Of a stretch of DNA of 64,000 nt, positions 16,398 through 26,972 are shown piece after piece. Made by a program: the position numbers and the translations under genes. The stretch is taken from the NCBI RefSeq assembly GCF_900103005.1, contig NZ_FMWL01000003.1, positions 1 to 64,000 of the forward strand, written 5' to 3'. Every line of letters starts with the position of its first letter. The first letter of the stretch is position 1. The stretch comes from Acidaminobacter hydrogenoformans DSM 2784. GTDB lineage: Bacteria; Bacillota; Clostridia; Peptostreptococcales; Acidaminobacteraceae. The notes beneath the pieces are model-generated. The model was given only the letters and a program-made list of their open reading frames with translations, did not search any database and was not told where the DNA came from.

Positions 16398-17318
16398 TTA
16401 TGTAGTTGGGTTCATACCGGCAGCGATAATGCTGCCAAGAGCTATTGAATAAAGCTTCACTTCCGCGGTGTCTGCCCGGGAGACGAGTACAACAGGTACT
16501 TTGGCACCCATGATTACCCCAGCGGATTCGGCATTTGCCAGATAGGTCAAGGCTTTTCCAATTCCATTTCCGACTTCAATGTTGGGCACCAGCAGAACGT
16601 CAGCATCACCAGCGATCTCACTTTCAAAGCCTTTAATTTCCGCTGCTTCCTTAGACACCGCAAGGTCAAAGGCCAAAGGCCCCTCTACAATGACCCCTTC
16701 TCCAAAATCCCCTTCCCGGGACATATTTTGGAGCGCGCGGGCATCCACGGTTGCCGGCATTTTATCATTGACCTTTTCCTTGGCTGCGATACAAGCCACT
16801 TTGACCGTTTCCATACCGAGTGTCCGGGCAGCGTCCAATGCGTTTCTCAGAATGGTCGCTTTTTCCGCAAGGGTTGGTTCAATGTTCATACCGCCATCCG
16901 TCAGGAACAGCAGCTTGTGGTAAGCCGGCGCGTCATAAAGCATAACGTGGCTTAGCTGACTGTCCGTTCTGAGGCCATATTCCCGGTTAAGCACAGCCTT
17001 AAGGAGAATGGAGGTGTCAATCAGCCCCTTCATCAGAAAGTCGGCTTTTCCTTCCCGTACCATTTGGACACTGACTTTCGCGGCGGCTTCCAGCTCAGGT
17101 TCATCAATAATTTCAACACCGCAAATTTCAAGATGTTCTTCGCCACAAAGCTCAGCGATTTTTTGCTGGTCACCAATCAAGATTGGCTCTATCAGCCCGA
17201 GCTGCGCCGCTTTGACGACCGCCCCGAGCACCTCAGGATCATGGGCCGCAGCGACAGCAAGGCGCATGGTCTTTTGAGACTTTGCCGCTTCCAACAGCTG
17301 ATCAAAATTTTTGATCAA
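16398..17318 (-). CDS. ptb: Phosphate butyryltransferase family enzyme
   Basis: Acyl-CoA:phosphate acyltransferase of 306 residues in the PTA/PTB family, shorter than typical phosphotransacetylase. Family features include DFLMKGLIDTS (about 98-108), EGPLAFDLA and the C-terminal VPVVLVSRADTAEVKL. It would convert an acyl-CoA to an acyl phosphate. Next to iorA-iorB the substrate may be an aryl-acetyl-CoA rather than butyryl-CoA; this is inference. No butyrate kinase gene is present in the window. Start is a TTG with AAGGAGG eight bases upstream. Confidence 0.87.
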   Translation of the reverse strand: MIKNFDQLLEAAKSQKTMRLAVAAAHDPEVLGAVVKAAQLGLIEPILIGDQQKIAELCGEEHLEICGVEIIDEPELEAAAKVSVQMVREGKADFLMKGLIDTSILLKAVLNREYGLRTDSQLSHVMLYDAPAYHKLLFLTDGGMNIEPTLAEKATILRNALDAARTLGMETVKVACIAAKEKVNDKMPATVDARALQNMSREGDFGEGVIVEGPLAFDLAVSKEAAEIKGFESEIAGDADVLLVPNIEVGNGIGKALTYLANAESAGVIMGAKVPVVLVSRADTAEVKLYSIALGSIIAAGMNPTT

Positions 17319-17358
17319 AGGCCGAACCTCCTTTTACACACCCACTCTTGCATCTTAA

Positions 17359-17387
17359 CATTTATGGGGGATTTTAGGTAAAGTCAA
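17359..17387 (-). promoter_or_regulatory. ptb-iorA-iorB promoter
   Basis: On the minus strand TTGACT (17382-17387), 17 bases, TAAATG (17359-17364). The -35 is strong and the -10 weak. It is 40 bases ahead of the ptb start. Confidence 0.5.
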
Positions 17388-17504
17388 CTTTGTTGAATAC
17401 TTCTATATTTTTTGTAATCTCAAGCTTATTGTAAACAATTATAGCGCAGAGTTCAAGTAGCTCTTATGTTATTCCTGTTGCTAAATGTTTGACCCCATTA
17501 ATTT

Positions 17505-17550
17505 AGAAGAAAAGGGAGATTGGCCCGGGACAGTCTCCCCACCAATCTCC
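17505..17550 (-). terminator. Terminator after TPR gene
   Basis: On the minus strand GGAGATTGG pairs with CCAATCTCC around a GC-rich loop and is followed by CTTTTCTTC. It would end the bshC-to-TPR transcription unit. The remaining bases between here and ptb (17388-17504) are AT-rich and show no gene. Confidence 0.65.
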
Positions 17551-17609
17551 AAACAAAGTGTAAACAAACAGCCACACTGCACCGCTGGTATCACGCCAAA
17601 CCGGCAGCT

Positions 17610-18743
17610 TTAAGAGAGCGGTCCTGCACCTGCGCCAAGATGTCTGATCCAGGCGGCAGTGACTTCATCCTCTGGATTCAGCTCATAAGCCCGTTCTATG
17701 AGCTTTCGCGCCTGTCCTGCATCTCCCAGGTGCAGCAGGGCGATCCCCTTGTTGCAAAGAAGGTCAGGAGATTCAGGGTGCATTTTGATTGCTTCTGTAT
17801 AAACCGCTTCAGCTTCATGGAAACGCTCAAGGGACATCAAGCAGAGGCCAATTTCGTTGTGGATTTCCGGGCTGCCCGTATTCAGGCGCTGAGCACGTCT
17901 GAAATAATCCAGCGCTTCGTCATACTGGGCTTTTTGACGGTAGGCAAGACCTATAAAGAACAAAAGATTCCACCAGTCGTCATGGCTGCTCTCAAGGGGG
18001 AGCAGCTTAACCAGACCTTCATCTGAAAAACCCTCAAGCACCAGCATATACCCTTCTTCATATTGGATGCGGCTCCAGAGGTCATCCAGCTGACGGAACA
18101 TTTCATCCCGCATGTTGTCGTCCACACCCAACTGCAGCGCATGGCGCCAAGCGGACTCCGCGGCTTTGTAGGACTTTCTGTTGACAAGCTGAAAGCCCAT
18201 CAGATAAAAAAGTGGCGCAAAGTCAGTAAATTGCTCAATTTTTTCAGAAAGGAGGTCAAAAACATCCTCTTCGAGCTGCTTCTCCTCAGGTGAATTTTCC
18301 GAAAACCGCTCAGCTTGACGCAGCGCGCAGCGCGCCAAATTATAGATGACCTGCGGCTGATCAGGCGCGATCTGGGCGGCCGCATGCAGATAAATAACAG
18401 CGTCCAGCCACTTTTCCTCCGCTTCAAGACCCTCCACCTTTTCTTCAAGCAGTGCCAGCAGACCCGGCATCAGCGCTGTCAGAAACGCCTTGTAGGCCTG
18501 TGCATGGGGGAACTCCGGGTCAAATCCCAAAGTCCAGCACATCCCTTCAGCAATATTGTCTGCGGTGAAATCCGTGTCGCTGACCCCTTTGACCTTGTCC
18601 ACGAGCTTGTCCACACGAATGGGAAGCGGCACCCGTTCATCCAGGGTGATCTCCCCCAGGGTCAGTGTCTTTCCTTCTTTCAATTCAACAAACATGACTT
18701 CGTCCGCTTTTCGCTTCAAAAGCATGCGGCTGCGTTCCAGCAT
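17610..18743 (-). CDS. TPR-repeat protein of unknown function
   Basis: Soluble protein of about 377 residues made mainly of tetratricopeptide-like helices. Clear TPR units occur near 264-295 (ALDYFRRAQRLN), 300-330 (EAVYTEAIKMHPES) and 335-365 (ARKLIERAYELNPED), with weaker ones from about 110. The first 90 residues form a distinct domain with no recognised family. It has no signal peptide or membrane segment. ATG at 18743 is chosen, although a TTG three bases earlier has slightly better spacing from GGAGG. It is probably the last gene of the operon that begins with bshC. Confidence 0.8.
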   Translation of the reverse strand: MLERSRMLLKRKADEVMFVELKEGKTLTLGEITLDERVPLPIRVDKLVDKVKGVSDTDFTADNIAEGMCWTLGFDPEFPHAQAYKAFLTALMPGLLALLEEKVEGLEAEEKWLDAVIYLHAAAQIAPDQPQVIYNLARCALRQAERFSENSPEEKQLEEDVFDLLSEKIEQFTDFAPLFYLMGFQLVNRKSYKAAESAWRHALQLGVDDNMRDEMFRQLDDLWSRIQYEEGYMLVLEGFSDEGLVKLLPLESSHDDWWNLLFFIGLAYRQKAQYDEALDYFRRAQRLNTGSPEIHNEIGLCLMSLERFHEAEAVYTEAIKMHPESPDLLCNKGIALLHLGDAGQARKLIERAYELNPEDEVTAAWIRHLGAGAGPLS

Positions 18744-18761
18744 CAACTTTCAACCTCCAGT

Positions 18762-18803
18762 TCATTTTCGTTTCCGTACACTTCCGTACCATTTCCGTAC
18801 CAC
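18762..18803 (-). repeat. Triple GTACGGAA repeat in nadK-TPR spacer
   Basis: The 118-base spacer holds three near-tandem copies of GTACGGAA (minus strand), each about 10 to 11 bases apart. The period is close to one helical turn. It could be slippage or a binding array. No other element is seen. Confidence 0.6.
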
Positions 18804-18861
18804 CTCTGTCCCAGTTCTGCACCGGTTCAGTCCTGGCATTGTTTCCTGGGGTTTTCCACCC

Positions 18862-19683
18862 TCAGTCGCTGAGCACGCGGCTGACCCGCTTGTCTATGAT
18901 TTTATTTCTGAACAGCTCAAAATAATCATAATCTCCGTATCTCAAAATCTTGACCTCTTTGTGTGCTGCCCGTACAGAAATCTGGGAGATAAAGTCGTCC
19001 GTCACCTTCCTGCCGTCACAGGCCACAATGACAGCCCGCAGCTGAGCTTTGACAATTGAGAAATCAATCACAGTCTCAATAGGCACGACCATGGATGTTT
19101 TTAACGGCCTGTTGATGCTGTTGTCATTCGCGTGAATAGGTGTAATCTGATACACCGGCAGCTCCGAATGCGTCGCCACGCCACCGGCCCAAATGGCATA
19201 GCCCGTCGAACCTATTGGCGTTGAAATGATGAAGCCATCCCCGGTAAAATAATTGAACGGCTTCCCGTCAATATAGATTTTTACCTCAAGGAGCCGGGGT
19301 TCCAGATGCTTGATCAGAATTTCGTTGAAAGCGTAGCCGTCAATCTGCTCCCCGTTGACGGTTTTGCAGCGCACTTCGAGCAGCGGATAGCTCTGTATGG
19401 CATAGGCTTTGGTATCTAAAAGCTCCAAAATAATGTCAAGCTGATTGGGCGGTACACTGGGCAAAAATCCAAGGGTGCCGGTATTGACGCCAAGGAACGG
19501 AATCTTCAGCGTCCTGTAACGCCTAATCGCACTGAGCATAGTGCCATCACCGCCAATGACAATGATCAGGTCCGCGCCTTCGGAAACAATTTTGTATCCA
19601 GCCGCTGTCAACATCCGAAATAGTTTGTCCTTTACTTCCAAAGATGTTTTTTTAGTATTGCTGTACAGTGTGATATTTTTCAA
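18862..19683 (-). CDS. nadK: NAD kinase
   Basis: ATP- or polyphosphate-dependent NAD kinase of 273 residues that makes NADP. The catalytic GGDGT motif is at 44-48, with GVNTGTLGFL following and GSTGYAIWAGG in the middle. NAD kinases usually have NE/D-type residues in this region and here NDNS is present. It starts 46 bases after the upstream membrane-protein gene. A location in the same transcript as the bacillithiol genes would link NADPH supply to thiol reduction, which is inference. Confidence 0.93.
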   Translation of the reverse strand: MKNITLYSNTKKTSLEVKDKLFRMLTAAGYKIVSEGADLIIVIGGDGTMLSAIRRYRTLKIPFLGVNTGTLGFLPSVPPNQLDIILELLDTKAYAIQSYPLLEVRCKTVNGEQIDGYAFNEILIKHLEPRLLEVKIYIDGKPFNYFTGDGFIISTPIGSTGYAIWAGGVATHSELPVYQITPIHANDNSINRPLKTSMVVPIETVIDFSIVKAQLRAVIVACDGRKVTDDFISQISVRAAHKEVKILRYGDYDYFELFRNKIIDKRVSRVLSD

Positions 19684-19729
19684 TCAGGACCACCGCCTTA
19701 TGAGATGTAGACCGACAAAGCTGTATGCA

Positions 19730-20470
19730 TCAGTCATTCCGGTACATGGTTTCTGTAAAGAGGCGCTTGCGCCTCGTCGTTTTATAGAGGACATCAAACA
19801 GATACCCCCTGTAGATCATTCCGAAACTGATTAATCCCGCTGAGACCACACTCATAACGAGTAAATTGAGCCAACCCAGGCCAAAAGCATAGAGCCCTCC
19901 ATCAATCAAAGCTCGAACAGCGAGAAGGATCGCTATAATAACCGCGTTGGGCACCAGCCACTCAATGGCATTTTCCCTCGTGAATTCAACGGTTTTCACA
20001 AAGGTTTCCGGTTCGCTGAAATATTTTTGGTAGATCATCTCAGGCAGTGGATTCAAAATGACAAAAACAAAGAAATAAACAGCTGCCAGCACAAACCCCA
20101 GCCCCATGGCATTGAGGATTGGCGACAGCAGCAAGCTCGCGCCGTAATTCGCGACCCACATCACAAAGAGCACCATGTAAACCTTCCTGAAATGCACTGT
20201 AAATCCATTTTTAAAATCTTCCAGATCAAACTTTCTCCTTGTAATGACCTGATGGATGATGTGCAAATAATCCGAAATAATGGCAGCCTCAACAACAAAA
20301 ATCAAAATACCTCCCAGGAAGCCCATCATGGAAGCAACGGTTGCTGCAACCATAGTCAGAGCCATATAGGGGATCGCGAGCAAAAAAAGCAGCCAGTTAT
20401 TCAGGAAGGTGCCAACCGCTTTCTTGAAAACGGAGCGATTGGTCAGTACCAAGTCTTTCAGGATTTCCAT
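19730..20470 (-). CDS. Integral membrane protein of unknown function
   Basis: Protein of 246 residues with about six hydrophobic segments (roughly 24-45, 47-70, 98-118, 120-145, 175-195 and 200-220) and basic cytoplasmic ends (TTRRKRLF). I do not recognise the family. Its ATG lies 13 bases inside the end of the radical SAM gene, with GAGGTG there as ribosome binding site, so translation is coupled. It may serve the same pathway as the radical SAM enzyme, but nothing in the sequence shows a substrate. Confidence 0.75.
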   Translation of the reverse strand: MEILKDLVLTNRSVFKKAVGTFLNNWLLFLLAIPYMALTMVAATVASMMGFLGGILIFVVEAAIISDYLHIIHQVITRRKFDLEDFKNGFTVHFRKVYMVLFVMWVANYGASLLLSPILNAMGLGFVLAAVYFFVFVILNPLPEMIYQKYFSEPETFVKTVEFTRENAIEWLVPNAVIIAILLAVRALIDGGLYAFGLGWLNLLVMSVVSAGLISFGMIYRGYLFDVLYKTTRRKRLFTETMYRND

Positions 20471-22260
20471 AATTTCACCTCAAGGCTCGCTTGCGCGTAT
20501 TCATAGTGCCCATTCACAGCGGATCGCCGGGTCGTGTCCACCCAGCCCAGCCACACTGAATCCTGCTGCGGCTGGACCTCAGTGACGCCCTCCAGCCAGG
20601 CTTTGACGTCAAAGTCGAAGAGCTGATACCTGACACGTTTTAAAATTGTCTTCACTGGCAAGGACGCGTCTGAAGTCCTGAGCGCATCATGGATCAGCCC
20701 TCTGACCATTTCAGGCATGTCGCTCTCCCGGCGCCTTTTGGCCAGCGCTACCAGGCAGTCATAGTCAAGAAGCCCTCTAAATACCGGATCATACCAGCTT
20801 TGTTCTTCAAGATAAGCCTCCAGGTGACTGTAATGCGCTTCACTCCTGTAAGCCTGCTGATCATAGCCTCTGCCTCTGAAAAACTCAGAGAGCCCAGTGA
20901 AGAAGGCCGATGGTAACAGGCCGCTCCTGCCAAGGGCATAGCTCAGTGTCTGGGTGAAGCCATGGCTATTGTAAAAAATGTCAACCAGCGCTTCAACGCG
21001 CTTAAGCTGCGTGAGCTCAGCAAAGCTTAACTTATGGTTGCCAAGGACTTCATAAGGCGGATGATCCTCTTTGATGTACCCGTATTTCCCCGCTTCCTCA
21101 GAAAGCGGCGAGCCTGGGATCAGTTTCAGGAATCCAAGCTGCAAGGCGTGGGGACTTAGGTTGTAAACCTCATCAAAGGAGTTCAAAAACCGCTCATAAG
21201 TTTCAAATGGAAGACCCGCGATCAAGTCAAGGTGGAGATGGACATTCCCAAGGGCTCTCAGTTTCCTGCAAACCTCCGCAGTCCTCTCAAAGGGCAATGG
21301 CCTTTGAACCGCCGTCATGGCTTCCTCGCAGGTCGACTGTACGCCAATCTCAAACTGGAATTGGCCTGGTCTTGCCTTTGACAAAAGCTCAATCTCTTCC
21401 TCCCTGATCAGGGCTGCTGTGATTTCAAAGTGAAATCCGGTTATGCCATTATCATGCTCTATCAAATATCGAAAAATTGTCTGGGTTCGAACAGGATCAA
21501 TATTGAAGGTCCGGTCCACAAACTTGACCTGCATGACCTCCGCCTTCAGGAATTTTTCTAAATCATCCAGAACTCGGTCGAGACCAAACACCCGGACACC
21601 GGGTTCCCTTGAAGACAGGCAATACGCGCAGCGATAGGGACAGCCCCTGGAAGCTTCATAGTAAAGCATGCGTTGTCCGCCGAGCTCCTCTTCTTTGTAC
21701 GGAAATGGGATGCTGTCCAGCGCTTTGATCAGCGGCGCCTTTCCATGGTTGACGACGCCCTCCGGCGTCCGTTCCACCAAACCGGGAATCCCGAAATTCC
21801 CCCTGTTGATCTGCCTTTCAATATAATCTCCCAGGATTTTCTCGCCTTCACCTGTAACAACGGCATCCAGATAACTATAAGCTTTCAGAAAGCTTACTGC
21901 ATCATAAGCACTCTCAGGTCCACCGAACAGGATCACCGTCCCTGGCAAAACCTTTTTCAAAGACGCCGCCAGCTTCAGGGTGGCTTCAACATTCCAGATA
22001 TAAACGGAAAAGCACAGATAGTCAGGGCCGGCCTCAAAAAGTGTTCTGAGAATCTGCTCATGAGGCTGGTTGATAGTGAATTCATGGAGCGTGACGCGGA
22101 CTGAATCCTGCCCTGGTTCAGCACCACCTGCTGAGTCGAGCTTATGTCGGGGATCAGGGGAACCAACCGTAAAGCGCTGCTCCAAAGCGGACCGCAGATA
22201 ACGCAGGCTGAGGCTCATATGTGTATAGCGTGAATTAAGTGTGGTCAATATGACGTTCAA
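20458..22260 (-). CDS. B12-binding radical SAM protein (DUF4080-like)
   Basis: Protein of 600 residues. Residues 1-170 fit a cobalamin-binding fold (CFSVYIWN, ILFGGPES, VVTGEGE) and residues about 200-400 a radical SAM domain with the cluster cysteines C207, C211 and C214 in GCPYRCAYC. The C-terminal 200 residues match the architecture of DUF4080 proteins. The frame extends upstream to 22440, but this would overlap bshA by 170 bases; TTG at 22260 gives MNVILTTLNSRY, the usual beginning of this family, seven bases after the bshA stop. Reaction unknown. A linker near 35-50 is rich in Gly and Pro. Confidence 0.85.
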   Translation of the reverse strand: MNVILTTLNSRYTHMSLSLRYLRSALEQRFTVGSPDPRHKLDSAGGAEPGQDSVRVTLHEFTINQPHEQILRTLFEAGPDYLCFSVYIWNVEATLKLAASLKKVLPGTVILFGGPESAYDAVSFLKAYSYLDAVVTGEGEKILGDYIERQINRGNFGIPGLVERTPEGVVNHGKAPLIKALDSIPFPYKEEELGGQRMLYYEASRGCPYRCAYCLSSREPGVRVFGLDRVLDDLEKFLKAEVMQVKFVDRTFNIDPVRTQTIFRYLIEHDNGITGFHFEITAALIREEEIELLSKARPGQFQFEIGVQSTCEEAMTAVQRPLPFERTAEVCRKLRALGNVHLHLDLIAGLPFETYERFLNSFDEVYNLSPHALQLGFLKLIPGSPLSEEAGKYGYIKEDHPPYEVLGNHKLSFAELTQLKRVEALVDIFYNSHGFTQTLSYALGRSGLLPSAFFTGLSEFFRGRGYDQQAYRSEAHYSHLEAYLEEQSWYDPVFRGLLDYDCLVALAKRRRESDMPEMVRGLIHDALRTSDASLPVKTILKRVRYQLFDFDVKAWLEGVTEVQPQQDSVWLGWVDTTRRSAVNGHYEYAQASLEVKLWKS

Positions 22261-22267
22261 AGGAATC

Positions 22268-23488
22268 CTACCTCTCGGATGCGGGGGTGTGACGGGGCTC
22301 AGACAGCAGTCTTTCATAAAGGGCGACGTATTGGGACGCAATCGTTTTTTCTTCAAATAAGGAAATGGCTCTGATGCGGGCGGCAGAAGCCATCTCATTG
22401 TAGCGAACTGAATCAGAAAGAATAGAGACAGCGTCTTCAATCATCTTCTCAGTATCGCCCACTTCTGACAAAGCGCCACAGATGCCGTCTTCAACGACCT
22501 CCGGTATACCGCCGGTGCGGCTGGCAATCACCGGCACCTCACACGCCATAGCTTCAAGGGCCGCCAGTCCGAAGCTCTCCTTCTCCGAGGGCAGCAGGAA
22601 AAGATCCGAACATGACAAGAGGGCTGCCACGTTGTCTTGCTTGCCCATGAAGTGGACGCGGTCTCTAAGGCCAAAGCGATCCGTCAAGTCATAGGCCGTA
22701 CGCATTTCAGGGCCATCCCCTACAAGCATCAAATGCGAAGGGCATCTGGCGTTGACTCCCCTGAAAATTTCCAGGACATCCTGGATGCGCTTGACAGGTC
22801 GAAAATTTGAGATGTGTATGAGCAGCTTCTCTTCAACAGGAACTTTAAGACGACTGCGTGAGCATAGTGCCTGCTGCCGGCTGTACTGAGAAGCGTTGAT
22901 AAAATTGTAAATTTTTTGTATAGGCCTGGCAATGTTTAAGGTTTTAAGGGTATATTGCTTCAAATCATCTGAAACAGCGGTCAAGGCATCCATTTGGTTG
23001 AGGCTGAATTCGGTAACGTCCCTCAAGCTTTGGTCTTCAGACATAATGGTCACATCCGTCCCATGAAGGGTCGTTACGGTTCTGACCTGAGACCCCAGCA
23101 TCTGCGCCGCCATGTGGACGGCCATAGTGTGAGGCACAGCGTAATGGGCATGGAGGATCTGAAGGTTCTCCCGGCGGGCGACTTCATAAATTTTGTTGGC
23201 AAGGGCCAAAATGTAGGGCGGATATTTGAAAACCGGATAATTGGAGACGTCCACTTCGTGGAAGAAGATGTTTTCGTGGAAGGCCATCAATCGGAAAGGT
23301 TTGTCATAAGTGATGAAGTGGATCTCATGGCCAAGATCCGCAAGGTGTATGCCAAGCTCAGTCGCGACGACGCCGCTGCCGCCATAGGAGGGGTAACAAA
23401 CCATTCCAATTTTCAAGCGCGATAGCGCCTGTGGATCACGAATGGGTTGCTGGCTATCCGAGGAGGATAATCCTGTGCTCCGGATCAT
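22268..23488 (-). CDS. bshA: N-acetyl-alpha-D-glucosaminyl L-malate synthase
   Basis: GT-B glycosyltransferase (family 4) of 406 residues that joins GlcNAc from UDP-GlcNAc to L-malate, the first step of bacillithiol synthesis. The N-terminal IGMVCYPSYGGSGVVATELG and SNFRPVKR and the C-terminal EX7E region EKESFGLAALEAMACEVPV match BshA specifically among GT4 enzymes. ATG at 23488 has GGGGGAGG six bases ahead, all inside the end of bshC, so the two are coupled. An N-terminal extension of about 25 polar residues precedes the core. Confidence 0.92.
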   Translation of the reverse strand: MIRSTGLSSSDSQQPIRDPQALSRLKIGMVCYPSYGGSGVVATELGIHLADLGHEIHFITYDKPFRLMAFHENIFFHEVDVSNYPVFKYPPYILALANKIYEVARRENLQILHAHYAVPHTMAVHMAAQMLGSQVRTVTTLHGTDVTIMSEDQSLRDVTEFSLNQMDALTAVSDDLKQYTLKTLNIARPIQKIYNFINASQYSRQQALCSRSRLKVPVEEKLLIHISNFRPVKRIQDVLEIFRGVNARCPSHLMLVGDGPEMRTAYDLTDRFGLRDRVHFMGKQDNVAALLSCSDLFLLPSEKESFGLAALEAMACEVPVIASRTGGIPEVVEDGICGALSEVGDTEKMIEDAVSILSDSVRYNEMASAARIRAISLFEEKTIASQYVALYERLLSEPRHTPASER

Positions 23489-25109
23489 AGTCAACCTCCC
23501 CCAGCAAAAAATCTATCAGTGTATTGCCCTGGTCCGCGTAATATTGAAGAATGGAAAGGGTGCGTTCCTGAAGGTTTCCACCCGGCATCAATTGGTCCTC
23601 TACAGCATTCAGGTCCTGTGTAATCTGTCTGTGATTGCGTCTGTGGAACCGGTGGGCCTTCTCCTTCAAATAGCTCATCTGGGATTTGATAATGTTTATA
23701 TTCTTTTCTGCCAACGTCTTGAGATCCGGACTGATTTCCAGAACGTTCTCAAGCATGGTCCTATATTCTGCCTCAAATTTTGAAGTGTAATCGTCAAACA
23801 GCGTATCAATCCTGACATCATCCCGGAGATCCAGAAGATAGTCCCTGATGGTGCTGATCCCGCACATCAGGACGTTCTCAGGGGACAAATCATACTGATC
23901 CAGCATCTTTGTGACATCTTTTGGTACCAGTGTGAAGTTTTCACGCGGGTAAAAGATTGGCGGCTGCTTTCCAAACACTGGGTAGACCTTGTCCAGCTGG
24001 CCGTAATAATTGAGTTCGCCAGGCCCCGCTACATAGGCCAGGGTGGGCAGGAGCACATCCTGAACTACTGGCCTGAGAACGACATTGGTGCTGAAATCCT
24101 GCGGCCGGCTGACTGCCCTCTCAAGAAGTTCTTCCTTCGTGTAGTAATGCTTTTGCGCTGTGCTCTCGCAGTAAAAGCCTTCTGAATCCCTCCGCAGTGC
24201 CAGCCGTTCTTCGTGTTCATAGATGAAGAGCTGAAGGCCTTGCGCGTCAAACTCAATGGCTTTCTGAAAGCCGAGGCGCTCCACCTCTTGACTTTGTTTC
24301 TCCAAAGCACTGACCACCTCAGGCTGCCTGTTAATGGCCGTTTGAAAAAAACCGGATTCCAGTGCTCTCAGCTCAGGCAGCATAGGATCCAGCATGACTA
24401 AGCCATAGTCATGAAAGAGACGGCTCATGATGCGACCAAACCAATTGCTCAGGGAATCCTTTTCTATAAAGGTGGTCGACAGCAACGCTTCGAAGTGTTC
24501 TATTGGCTCATCACCGGAAAAATCAGAAAGGATCTGCTCAATGGACTGCCTGACACTGCTGTTGGTTTCAAGGTGACCCACGGACATTTTTTTTAAATTG
24601 ACGCGCTTCAAAGTTTGGCGGTCTGTTTTGTCAATGACGACCTTTCTGAGCTTACCTCCGGTCAGGTATTGGGCTGCCCTGATTTCTTGAAAGTCATGGT
24701 CCTCAGAGGCGATCCAGAAGACGGGGACCACCGGCCGCCCCAGTGCCTTTTCAAGACTGGAGGAAAGCTTCAGAGTTGAGATCGCTTTGTAAACTGTATA
24801 AAGGGCGCCTGTAAAAATGCCGGCTTGTTGTCCTGTGACAACCACGACAGCCTCTTGCTGTCTGAGCTTGTCTATGTGCTTCAGGGTCTTCTCAGAGCCA
24901 CCGAGACTTCTGTTGTACATTTCCAGAGCATCACACAGTACTTTGCGCTCTACGGGCTGCGCCTCGAGGGCCTTCAACCTGCGCTGAAGGCTTTCTGGAT
25001 CGCGAAAATTCAGGCTGTATAAAGTGCCGACCCGTGGGTCGTGATTCACATAAGCGGCGGAAAGTCCCTTGAAAATGTTATATTGACTGGATTGCGCGCG
25101 AAGTTCCAT
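23454..25109 (-). CDS. bshC: Putative cysteine ligase BshC
   Basis: Protein of 551 residues of the BshC family, which adds cysteine to glucosaminyl-malate as the last step of bacillithiol synthesis. VTGQQAGIFTGALYTVYKA (about 92-110) and FWIASEDHDFQEI (about 133-145) are characteristic nucleotide-binding-like motifs. A coiled-coil segment lies at about 450-500, as known in this family. Length is typical. It overlaps bshA by 35 bases. The deacetylase BshB is not in this window. First gene of the unit, with an extended -10 promoter at 25145-25155. Confidence 0.93.
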   Translation of the reverse strand: MELRAQSSQYNIFKGLSAAYVNHDPRVGTLYSLNFRDPESLQRRLKALEAQPVERKVLCDALEMYNRSLGGSEKTLKHIDKLRQQEAVVVVTGQQAGIFTGALYTVYKAISTLKLSSSLEKALGRPVVPVFWIASEDHDFQEIRAAQYLTGGKLRKVVIDKTDRQTLKRVNLKKMSVGHLETNSSVRQSIEQILSDFSGDEPIEHFEALLSTTFIEKDSLSNWFGRIMSRLFHDYGLVMLDPMLPELRALESGFFQTAINRQPEVVSALEKQSQEVERLGFQKAIEFDAQGLQLFIYEHEERLALRRDSEGFYCESTAQKHYYTKEELLERAVSRPQDFSTNVVLRPVVQDVLLPTLAYVAGPGELNYYGQLDKVYPVFGKQPPIFYPRENFTLVPKDVTKMLDQYDLSPENVLMCGISTIRDYLLDLRDDVRIDTLFDDYTSKFEAEYRTMLENVLEISPDLKTLAEKNINIIKSQMSYLKEKAHRFHRRNHRQITQDLNAVEDQLMPGGNLQERTLSILQYYADQGNTLIDFLLGEVDYDPEHRIILLG

Positions 25110-25144
25110 AGCAACCTTCCTTCATGATTTGACTTAACAGAACT

Positions 25145-25155
25145 ATTATATCACA
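25145..25155 (-). promoter_or_regulatory. bshC promoter (extended -10)
   Basis: On the minus strand TTTGTGATATAAT gives a TATAAT -10 (25145-25150) with the TGn extension. No good -35 lies at 17 bases. It starts inside the descending arm of the argS terminator, so terminator and promoter are interleaved. Confidence 0.55.
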
Positions 25156-25202
25156 AACAAACCGGTCAACGAGCCCTTTAAAGGCTGAATTGACCGGCTT
25201 GT
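25154..25202 (-). terminator. argS terminator
   Basis: AAGCCGGTCAA pairs with TTGACCGGTTT and is followed by GTTTGTTTG on the minus strand, about 65 bases after the argS stop. An inner CAGCCTTTAAAGGGCT hairpin caps it. Confidence 0.75.
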
Positions 25203-25268
25203 ATTTGATGCTTTTCAGGTTGACGCAGGAGCCGGGCAGTTCGTGACGTTTGTGACGACGCTTGCCGA

Positions 25269-26972
25269 CTACATTTTGACCGGCGCTTTAAGGCTGATCA
25301 GGAATAGAGCGTTCTTAATGGTTTGTCGCGTCGCGTCGACCAGAGCCAGACGCGCTGTTGAAAGCACCTCATCCTCAGAGAGGATTGGGTGATCATGGTA
25401 AAAGCGGTTGAACTCCTGAGCTAAGTTGACGACATAGCGGGTAATCAAAGACGGTTCGTACTTTTCACCAGCGTCAATTACGATTTCAGGGAACTGGCGA
25501 ATCAGCTTGACGACCTCACTGGTTGCGCTGTCGCCTAACTTTGAAAAATCAACCGGTTGCTTAAGCAGTTCTGGGGCAGCTTTTCTCAATACGCTGCATG
25601 CCCGGGCATGGGTATACTGGACGTAAGGTCCTGTTTCGCCGTCAAAGGAAAGGGTTTTGTCGAGACTGAAGGTATAATCCTTGATCCGGTTGTTTGAAAG
25701 CTCCTGGAAGACGACCGCGCCTATGCCAACCTGCGCTGCCACTTCGTCTTTGTGTTCGAGATTTGGATTTTTTTCCGCAATAATTTCTTTTGTCTTTTCA
25801 ACTGCTTTCTTCAAAACCTCTTCGAGGAAGACCACACGGCCTTTACGGGTCGACAGAGACCCTTCCTCAAGGGAGACTGTACCAAATTCAACGTGAACAC
25901 AATCCTTGACCCAGTCGTAGCCCATCAGTTCAACAACCTTCATCCACTGCTGGAAGTGCAGCTTTTGAGGGGCACCGACAACGTAGACATTTTTGTCAAA
26001 ATTATAATGGTTCTTTCTGTAGATCGCAGCGGTGATGTCTCTGGTCAGATAGAGGGTTGAACCGTCTTTTTTGGTGATGAGCGCAGGCGGCATGCCATAG
26101 GGCTCGAGGTCGACGATTTCAGCACCATCGGAAACCTTCATGATGCTCTTTTGGCGCATCTCCTCCAAAACCGCTGGCATTTTATCCGAATAGAAGCTTT
26201 CACCCGCATAGGAATCAAAATGAACGTCCAGCATGCCGTAAACCCTGCTGAACTCCTTCAGGCTGATATCCCTGAACCACTCCCAGAGCTCATAGGCCTC
26301 AGGATCATTGTCTTCGAGCCTCTTGAACCAGTTTCTGGCTTCGTCCTCCAGTGATGGGTTGACCTCCGCTTCGTCATGGAATTTGACGTAGATTTTCAGC
26401 AGCTCCGGAATAGGATCCGCCTCAATGGTCGCCCTGTCCCCCCACAGCTTGAAAGCGACAATAAGTTTTCCAAACTGAGTTCCGTAATCGCCAAGGTGGT
26501 TGATGCCAATAGTGTTGTACCCCAAAAACTTATGAATCCTGTAAAGGGCATTGCCAATCATAGTACTGCGGATGTGCCCCATGTGAAAGGGCTTGGCAAT
26601 ATTCGTGGAGGAGAATTCCACAATGACGGTCTTTCCTTCACCTTTTGTGGAAGAGCCGTAAAGATCCCCAAGCTCCAGGACATCCTTAAGGACATCCTCA
26701 GCGAGCTGGGCCTTATCCATGGTAAAGTTGACATAGGCACTGGCCGCCTCTACTTTTTCATAAAGCGGATCACCGGAAACCTTCTCAGCGAGCTCAGCCG
26801 CGATCAGGTTAGGCGCCTTCTTCAGCGCCTTGGCGTAACGAAAGCACGGGAACGCGAAATCTCCCATGTCCGTGTATTTTGGAAGCTCAATAAGTGCTGC
26901 TATTTCTTCTTCTGTCGCGATCTCAAGATGCGGCGCCAAGTGTGATGCAATGATTTTTCTGTAATCCTTCAC
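25269..26972 (-). CDS. argS: Arginyl-tRNA synthetase
   Basis: Class I aminoacyl-tRNA synthetase of 567 residues. The HIGH motif is HMGH (130-133) in SSTNIAKPFHMGHIRST; the KMSK region reads SLSTRKG, a variant common in ArgRS. The N-terminal additional domain (1-90) and C-terminal DALR anticodon-binding domain (about 450-567) are both present. Length normal. It is controlled by a T-box leader at 27080-27350 and ended by the terminator at 25154-25202. Confidence 0.96.
   Translation of the reverse strand: MKDYRKIIASHLAPHLEIATEEEIAALIELPKYTDMGDFAFPCFRYAKALKKAPNLIAAELAEKVSGDPLYEKVEAASAYVNFTMDKAQLAEDVLKDVLELGDLYGSSTKGEGKTVIVEFSSTNIAKPFHMGHIRSTMIGNALYRIHKFLGYNTIGINHLGDYGTQFGKLIVAFKLWGDRATIEADPIPELLKIYVKFHDEAEVNPSLEDEARNWFKRLEDNDPEAYELWEWFRDISLKEFSRVYGMLDVHFDSYAGESFYSDKMPAVLEEMRQKSIMKVSDGAEIVDLEPYGMPPALITKKDGSTLYLTRDITAAIYRKNHYNFDKNVYVVGAPQKLHFQQWMKVVELMGYDWVKDCVHVEFGTVSLEEGSLSTRKGRVVFLEEVLKKAVEKTKEIIAEKNPNLEHKDEVAAQVGIGAVVFQELSNNRIKDYTFSLDKTLSFDGETGPYVQYTHARACSVLRKAAPELLKQPVDFSKLGDSATSEVVKLIRQFPEIVIDAGEKYEPSLITRYVVNLAQEFNRFYHDHPILSEDEVLSTARLALVDATRQTIKNALFLISLKAPVKM

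Follow-up and report, generated by a model that had tools for sequence, protein, structure and literature searches.

Rare bacillithiol genes in Acidaminobacter hydrogenoformans: a probable bshB1 deletion, a candidate replacement deacetylase, and an adjoining radical SAM gene that is probably unrelated

Acidaminobacter hydrogenoformans DSM 2784 encodes two enzymes of bacillithiol synthesis, BshC and BshA, in the stretch of DNA analyzed here (the window: 64,000 nucleotides (nt), positions 1 to 64,000 of contig NZ_FMWL01000003.1). We hold with good confidence that this is an ordinary bshC-bshA pair (bshCA) lying between what we take to be argS and an older region, widespread in clostridia, around a radical S-adenosylmethionine (SAM) enzyme gene, rSAM, that stands independently of the bsh genes; that bshB1 was deleted from the genome; that deacetylation is likely carried out by another PIG-L protein (L001); and that the radical SAM enzyme is uninvolved. 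As judged from protein family, BshA would join UDP-GlcNAc (uridine diphosphate N-acetylglucosamine) and malate, a deacetylase, in this organism most likely L001, would yield GlcN-malate (glucosamine-malate), and BshC would add cysteine.

BshC scores 495.7 bits against TIGR03998 (cut-off 265.8), contains both BshC Pfam domains, and aligns with PDB 4wbd over residues 20-528 (217 bits). BshA scores 519.1 bits against TIGR03999 (cut-off 273.7) and aligns over most of its length with PDB 2jjm, 3mbo, and 5d00 (387-396 bits). A sequence-only reading of the locus had called these bacillithiol genes and considered them uncommon in Clostridia, and both statements are borne out. Within the order, 3 of 377 genomes (completeness at least 85%) carry bshC; Acidaminobacter is represented among them only by the window genome (G000) and a second genome (G001). 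In a sample of 393 genomes from the class, window genome included, two exceed the cut-off; a third match is weak (19.6 bits) and contains stops. In a set of 41 genomes, the three bearing bshC are G000, G001, and a relative from another genus (G012). Parts of two papers report bacillithiol genes in Firmicutes, Bacteroidetes, Deinococcus-Thermus, and others (PMC6282198, PMC12719100), and part of a commentary states that supposed Clostridia strains with nmbA have since been reclassified (PMC6336425). A literature search returned no paper containing both Acidaminobacter and bacillithiol.

No bshB was identified within the window, and no protein of the window genome exceeds the BshB1 or BshB2 cut-off. 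BshB1 is over its cut-off (182.5) in both G001 (251.3 bits) and G012 (237.8 bits). In these two genomes bshB1 occupies a shared site, in a gene order that we take to be mnmG-rsmG-parB-like-parA-parB-diacylglycerol kinase-bshB1. The corresponding site in G000 is continuous in one contig and about 700 bp shorter. The diacylglycerol kinase reading frame is intact and is followed by IDVFGVDKSQGIL-stop, which matches the end of the G001 bshB1, IHGFGVDKSCGIL-stop, over the last 13 codons plus the stop (local score 91, versus 27 for the best of 200 shuffles). This scar indicates that bshB1 was most likely once present in the window genome and then deleted. The sequence-only reading had described bshB as missing from the locus, which proves true more strongly than it was put, given the apparent deletion from the genome. 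A hidden bshB1 was considered and rejected: the PIG-L family search found none, and the gene's own site is contiguous and scarred. The genome search for bshB that the same reading had proposed was thus empty for the two named families, and turned up one PIG-L protein. Separately, G012 also encodes a BshB2 (L182, G012:C51:58567-58953; 272 bits, cut-off 195.25), and so has three candidate deacetylases in one genome: BshB1, BshB2, and a third PIG-L protein.

The PIG-L family search of the window genome found a single protein, L001 (G000:C25:255 kb; PF02585, 114 bits). It shares 87% identity with L172 of G001 and 50% with L171 of G012, with which it forms a clade supported at 100/96. This clade is present in all three bsh-bearing genomes and in none of the 38 others searched, five of which have completeness below 80%. 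In G000 and G012 this third PIG-L gene directly follows a gene that is presumably DNA methylase-like (L201, 7480-9468; L203, 4811-6712). With its PF02585 domain and a distribution limited to the bsh-bearing members of the 41 genomes, L001 is a PIG-L protein that could fill the deacetylase step, and is likely the replacement enzyme in the window genome. It was rejected as a standard BshB2, though BshB2 is its best NCBIfam match (92.6 bits, cut-off 195.25). Part of one study describes BshB1 and BshB2 as functionally redundant in B. subtilis and reports that the B. anthracis homologue BA3888 is a conjugate amidase in addition to its in vitro deacetylase role (PMC4360819); a swap among PIG-L proteins would therefore not be strange.

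The two remaining biosynthesis genes show no sign of relaxed constraint in the window genome. Unique residue changes in G000 and G001 number 19 and 28 for bshC, and 10 and 9 for bshA. Since the rate of change of both genes in the window genome is no higher than in G001, the pathway probably remains in use in this organism, with L001 the likeliest deacetylase. Going further, we suggest tentatively, and with rather less than even confidence, that after a natural deletion of bshB1 bacillithiol is still made via a third PIG-L clade outside BshB1 and BshB2, without YpdA or bacilliredoxins, in a stripped-down anaerobic pathway.

Several observations weigh against our overall account. YpdA is over its cut-off in none of the 41 genomes (at most 86 bits among the matches listed, cut-off 339.9), BrxA/B was found in none of the 41, and BrxC in none of the 8 genomes searched for it, so recycling by YpdA and bacilliredoxins was not identified. 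The bacillithiol-dependent enzymes for which the sequence-only reading had suggested a search were, to this extent, not found. Positive controls exceeded the cut-offs in 3 of 14 cases for YpdA, in B. subtilis alone for BrxA/B, and in B. subtilis and Deinobacterium for BrxC. The bshC and bshA comparison (dN, nonsynonymous divergence, 0.17 and 0.10) is one in which synonymous divergence (dS) is saturated, and not computable for bshA. If the deletion of bshB1 is very recent, bacillithiol synthesis may be dead already. L001 falls below the cut-offs of BshB2 and, at 54.6 bits, of BshB1 (as well as those of MshB and Mca), which leaves its substrate unproven, and it could be a bacillithiol S-conjugate amidase alone. 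Lastly, the tight 7-nt junction between bshA and rSAM in Acidaminobacter would, taken alone, suit a shared function.

In one alternative, bacillithiol synthesis is dying in the window organism, with bshB1 recently deleted and bshA and bshC persisting as undecayed leftovers. The 13-codon scar, the lack in the 41 genomes of YpdA over cut-off and of BrxA/B, and the finding of no bshC in 374 of the 377 genomes searched within the order all speak for such a course. We think it unlikely, however, given that both bshC and bshA retain their full length and have changed no faster than in G001 (although faster change would not yet be visible after a recent loss), that the co-occurring PIG-L gene has been retained, and that BshB1 and BshB2 are described as functionally redundant in B. 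subtilis. We regard as improbable a second alternative, in which L001 is only a bacillithiol S-conjugate amidase and an unrelated hydrolase performs the deacetylation. Its scores below both BshB cut-offs, some similarity to Mca (57 bits), and the reported amidase role of BA3888 would fit, but L001 is the sole PIG-L protein found in the genome (candidates from other families were not sought). Use of L001 as the deacetylase remains the reading that we prefer.

The radical SAM protein contains B12-binding, Radical_SAM, and DUF4080 domains (Pfam, over cut-off), and cysteines C206, C210, and C213 of its CxxxCxxC motif are invariant in three aligned rows, consistent with a cobalamin-binding radical SAM enzyme. 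Homologues (E <= 1e-40) occur in 37 of the 41 genomes, including 34 of the 38 that lack bshC. Regions surrounding the gene were taken from all 34 of these bsh-less genomes (L057-L090) and compared by BLAST with the window and G012 proteins; the resulting counts are approximate, as several contigs end early and the iorA match in L077 is weak. The presumed argS lies upstream in 25 of the 34 regions (24 of the 28 with more than 3 kb of upstream sequence). Downstream are genes for a TPR protein (30), ptb (25), the presumed iorA (22), and nadK (18). A membrane protein gene, mem, occurs in 17, always directly 3' of rSAM, with open-frame gaps of -54 to +22 nt; neither bshA nor bshC was found in any of the 34. 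Given that rSAM is present in 37 of the 41 genomes and bshC in three, and that the region is kept without bsh genes, rSAM is probably unrelated to bacillithiol. Across the order the recurrent arrangement is a DUF4080 rSAM gene, usually a TPR gene, mem or nadK in about half, then ptb-iorAB. The mem protein, with homologues in 20 of the 41 genomes, has no Pfam or NCBIfam match, and a literature search found no paper naming DUF4080.

The complementary view, from bshC, gives the same picture. Of 217 bshC matches in a collection of species, the best 80 were taken; two are G001 and G012, and 78 lie outside the clade. Homologues of rSAM, mem, nadK, and the TPR gene were identified at none of these 78 loci (up to 10 kb inspected on each side, less where the contig is short). 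Conversion of bacillithiol into a new thiol by the radical SAM enzyme (through methylation, for instance), with the enzyme's tight coupling to bshA reflecting this role, may be suggested by the 7 nt separating the bshA stop from the rSAM start, by nearest solved relatives that are TokK (a named methyltransferase) and CysS (a radical SAM enzyme), and by the methylated bacillithiol made by NmbA, as described in parts of PMC6282198 and PMC12719100, but on distribution and gene order it is hardly credible and we reject it, since homologues abound in genomes without bshC, an opposite-strand gene splits bshA from rSAM in G012, and none lies near bshC at the outside loci. The modified-thiol or thiol-linked repair pathway raised by the sequence-only reading falls for the same reasons, and conserved linkage of rSAM with bshA and bshC across genera fails outside this clade. 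As to gene order in relatives, bshCA does lie near the rSAM region in G001 and G012, but the region stands without bsh genes in 34 genomes.

How, then, did bshA come to adjoin rSAM? bshCA occupies the same site in Acidaminobacter and in the genus of G012. The order in G012, with gene names as above, is argS-bshC-bshA-x(reverse)-rSAM-mem-nadK-TPR-ptb-iorA, where x is a reverse-strand gene also present in 18 of the 34 bsh-less rSAM regions. Gene x was not found in G000 or G001, and in Acidaminobacter rSAM lies directly 3' of bshA. Loss of x in Acidaminobacter alone would have placed the two side by side. Because the region is kept across the order without bacillithiol genes, the joining of bshA to rSAM appears to be a positional accident, sharpened by the loss of x. 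Gene x itself (L006, 7034-7543) encodes a protein of about 170 amino acids (aa) to which no Pfam family corresponds. In 19 genomes it neighbors rSAM in the opposite orientation, and G012 has two further homologues elsewhere.

The shared insertion site favors a single acquisition of bshCA. Two gene trees bear on the number of events. The first, with 33 of 37 rows (four were too short), separates G012 from Acidaminobacter, but the support is weak; in the second, with 29 of 37 rows (three were too short and five were left out by name), a single clade is neither rejected (p-AU, from the approximately unbiased test, 0.226) nor demonstrated. A BshC tree of 27 rows (24 picked from the 80 loci plus the window, L091, and G012) groups the latter three together (99/97), outside a nine-row group of Bacillus, Planococcus, Paenibacillus, and kindred (100/98). 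One Alicyclobacillus row is placed elsewhere, and the deep forks are weak. Recent transfer of bshCA from Bacilli was rejected, as this tree provides the trio with no close donor and places it outside the Bacillus-type group.

Compared with the B. subtilis pathway (BshA, BshB1/BshB2, BshC), the window proteins resemble BshA and BshC in matching curated families and solved structures. The window genome differs in having neither BshB1 nor BshB2 over cut-off, bshB1 having apparently been deleted with the third PIG-L clade left, and in having no YpdA over cut-off and no BrxA/B found. The order and direction of bshC and bshA are shared with bshC-bshB1-bshA cassettes of anaerobic Bacillota (e.g., Candidatus Frackibacter) and one Sumerlaeota. 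In such cassettes, however, bshC and bshA flank a bshB; this was seen at 6 of the 78 outside loci (over the BshB1 cut-off in L093, L094, and L098; by BLAST in L134, L144, and L165), whereas in the present clade bshB1 is at a second site in G001 and G012 and gone from the window genome. The N-methyl-bacillithiol pathway shares with this locus the bacillithiol genes and the idea of a methyl modification, but NmbA is described in part of PMC12719100 as a SAM-dependent methyltransferase with a seven-strand fold, and not a radical SAM enzyme.

Within the window, bshC, bshA, rSAM, mem, nadK, and the TPR gene follow one another in that order, all on the minus strand (Table 1), as the sequence-only reading had described, with short gaps or overlaps. 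rSAM begins 7 nt past the bshA stop; the mem start at 20470 lies inside the end of rSAM (20458), an overlap of 13 nt; and gaps of 46 nt and 115 nt separate mem from nadK and nadK from the TPR gene. Whether bshC and bshA overlap depends on the bshA start: the ATG at 23488 gives a 35-nt overlap and the TTG at 23416, the start position matching G012, a 37-nt gap. NCBIfam NAD kinase models match the nadK product under their cut-offs. Upstream of bshC is the gene that we take to be argS and downstream, after ptb, are genes that we take to be iorA-iorB; ptb is a loose label, the protein falling under the phosphate butyryltransferase cut-offs.

The hairpin between argS and bshC is very strong (none of 200 shuffles was equally stable), and 4 of 200 shuffles matched the stability of the hairpin beyond the TPR gene. 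These two hairpins make a bshC-to-TPR transcription unit plausible. The flanking signals earlier proposed are upheld insofar as hairpins lie at both ends and a promoter-like site is present at 25169-25142. The claim of only one promoter is not supported, as 19 promoter-like sites were found on both strands of 16500-26500, versus 8.3 expected. The promoter-like site upstream of bshC overlaps the unusually stable argS/bshC hairpin.

Table 1. Genes and hairpins of the bshC-to-TPR locus (window coordinates)
Feature	Coordinates	Strand	Remarks
bshC	23454..25109	-	551 aa; cysteine-adding enzyme of bacillithiol synthesis; TIGR03998, Pfam, PDB 4wbd
bshA	22268..23416	-	GlcNAc-malate synthase; TIGR03999, PDB; start uncertain (TTG 23416 or ATG 23488)
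rSAM (B12-binding, DUF4080)	20458..22260	-	Pfam; start TTG 22260, not 22440; in bsh-independent region
mem (membrane protein, unnamed family)	19730..20470	-	overlaps rSAM gene by 13 nt
nadK	18862..19683	-	both NAD kinase Pfam domains over cut-offs
TPR protein	17610..18743	-	TPR families; start ATG 18743 or TTG 18746
Hairpin argS/bshC	25142..25215	-	fold z -8.15; likely argS terminator
Terminator-like hairpin 3' of TPR gene	17500..17560	-	fold z -2.85

With the tempting link between radical SAM chemistry and bacillithiol removed as false, the picture that remains, as read from the genomes, is of a rare clostridial bacillithiol pathway with an apparent natural deletion of bshB1 and a testable candidate for its replacement. 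The organism offers a natural test case: bshA and bshC are intact, bshB1 is deleted, and one other PIG-L protein is present, and that protein should be assayed as an additional GlcNAc-malate deacetylase. The case bears on how anaerobes lacking the Bacilli-type recycling enzymes may use bacillithiol, and pathway surveys that demand all three named genes could overlook such organisms.

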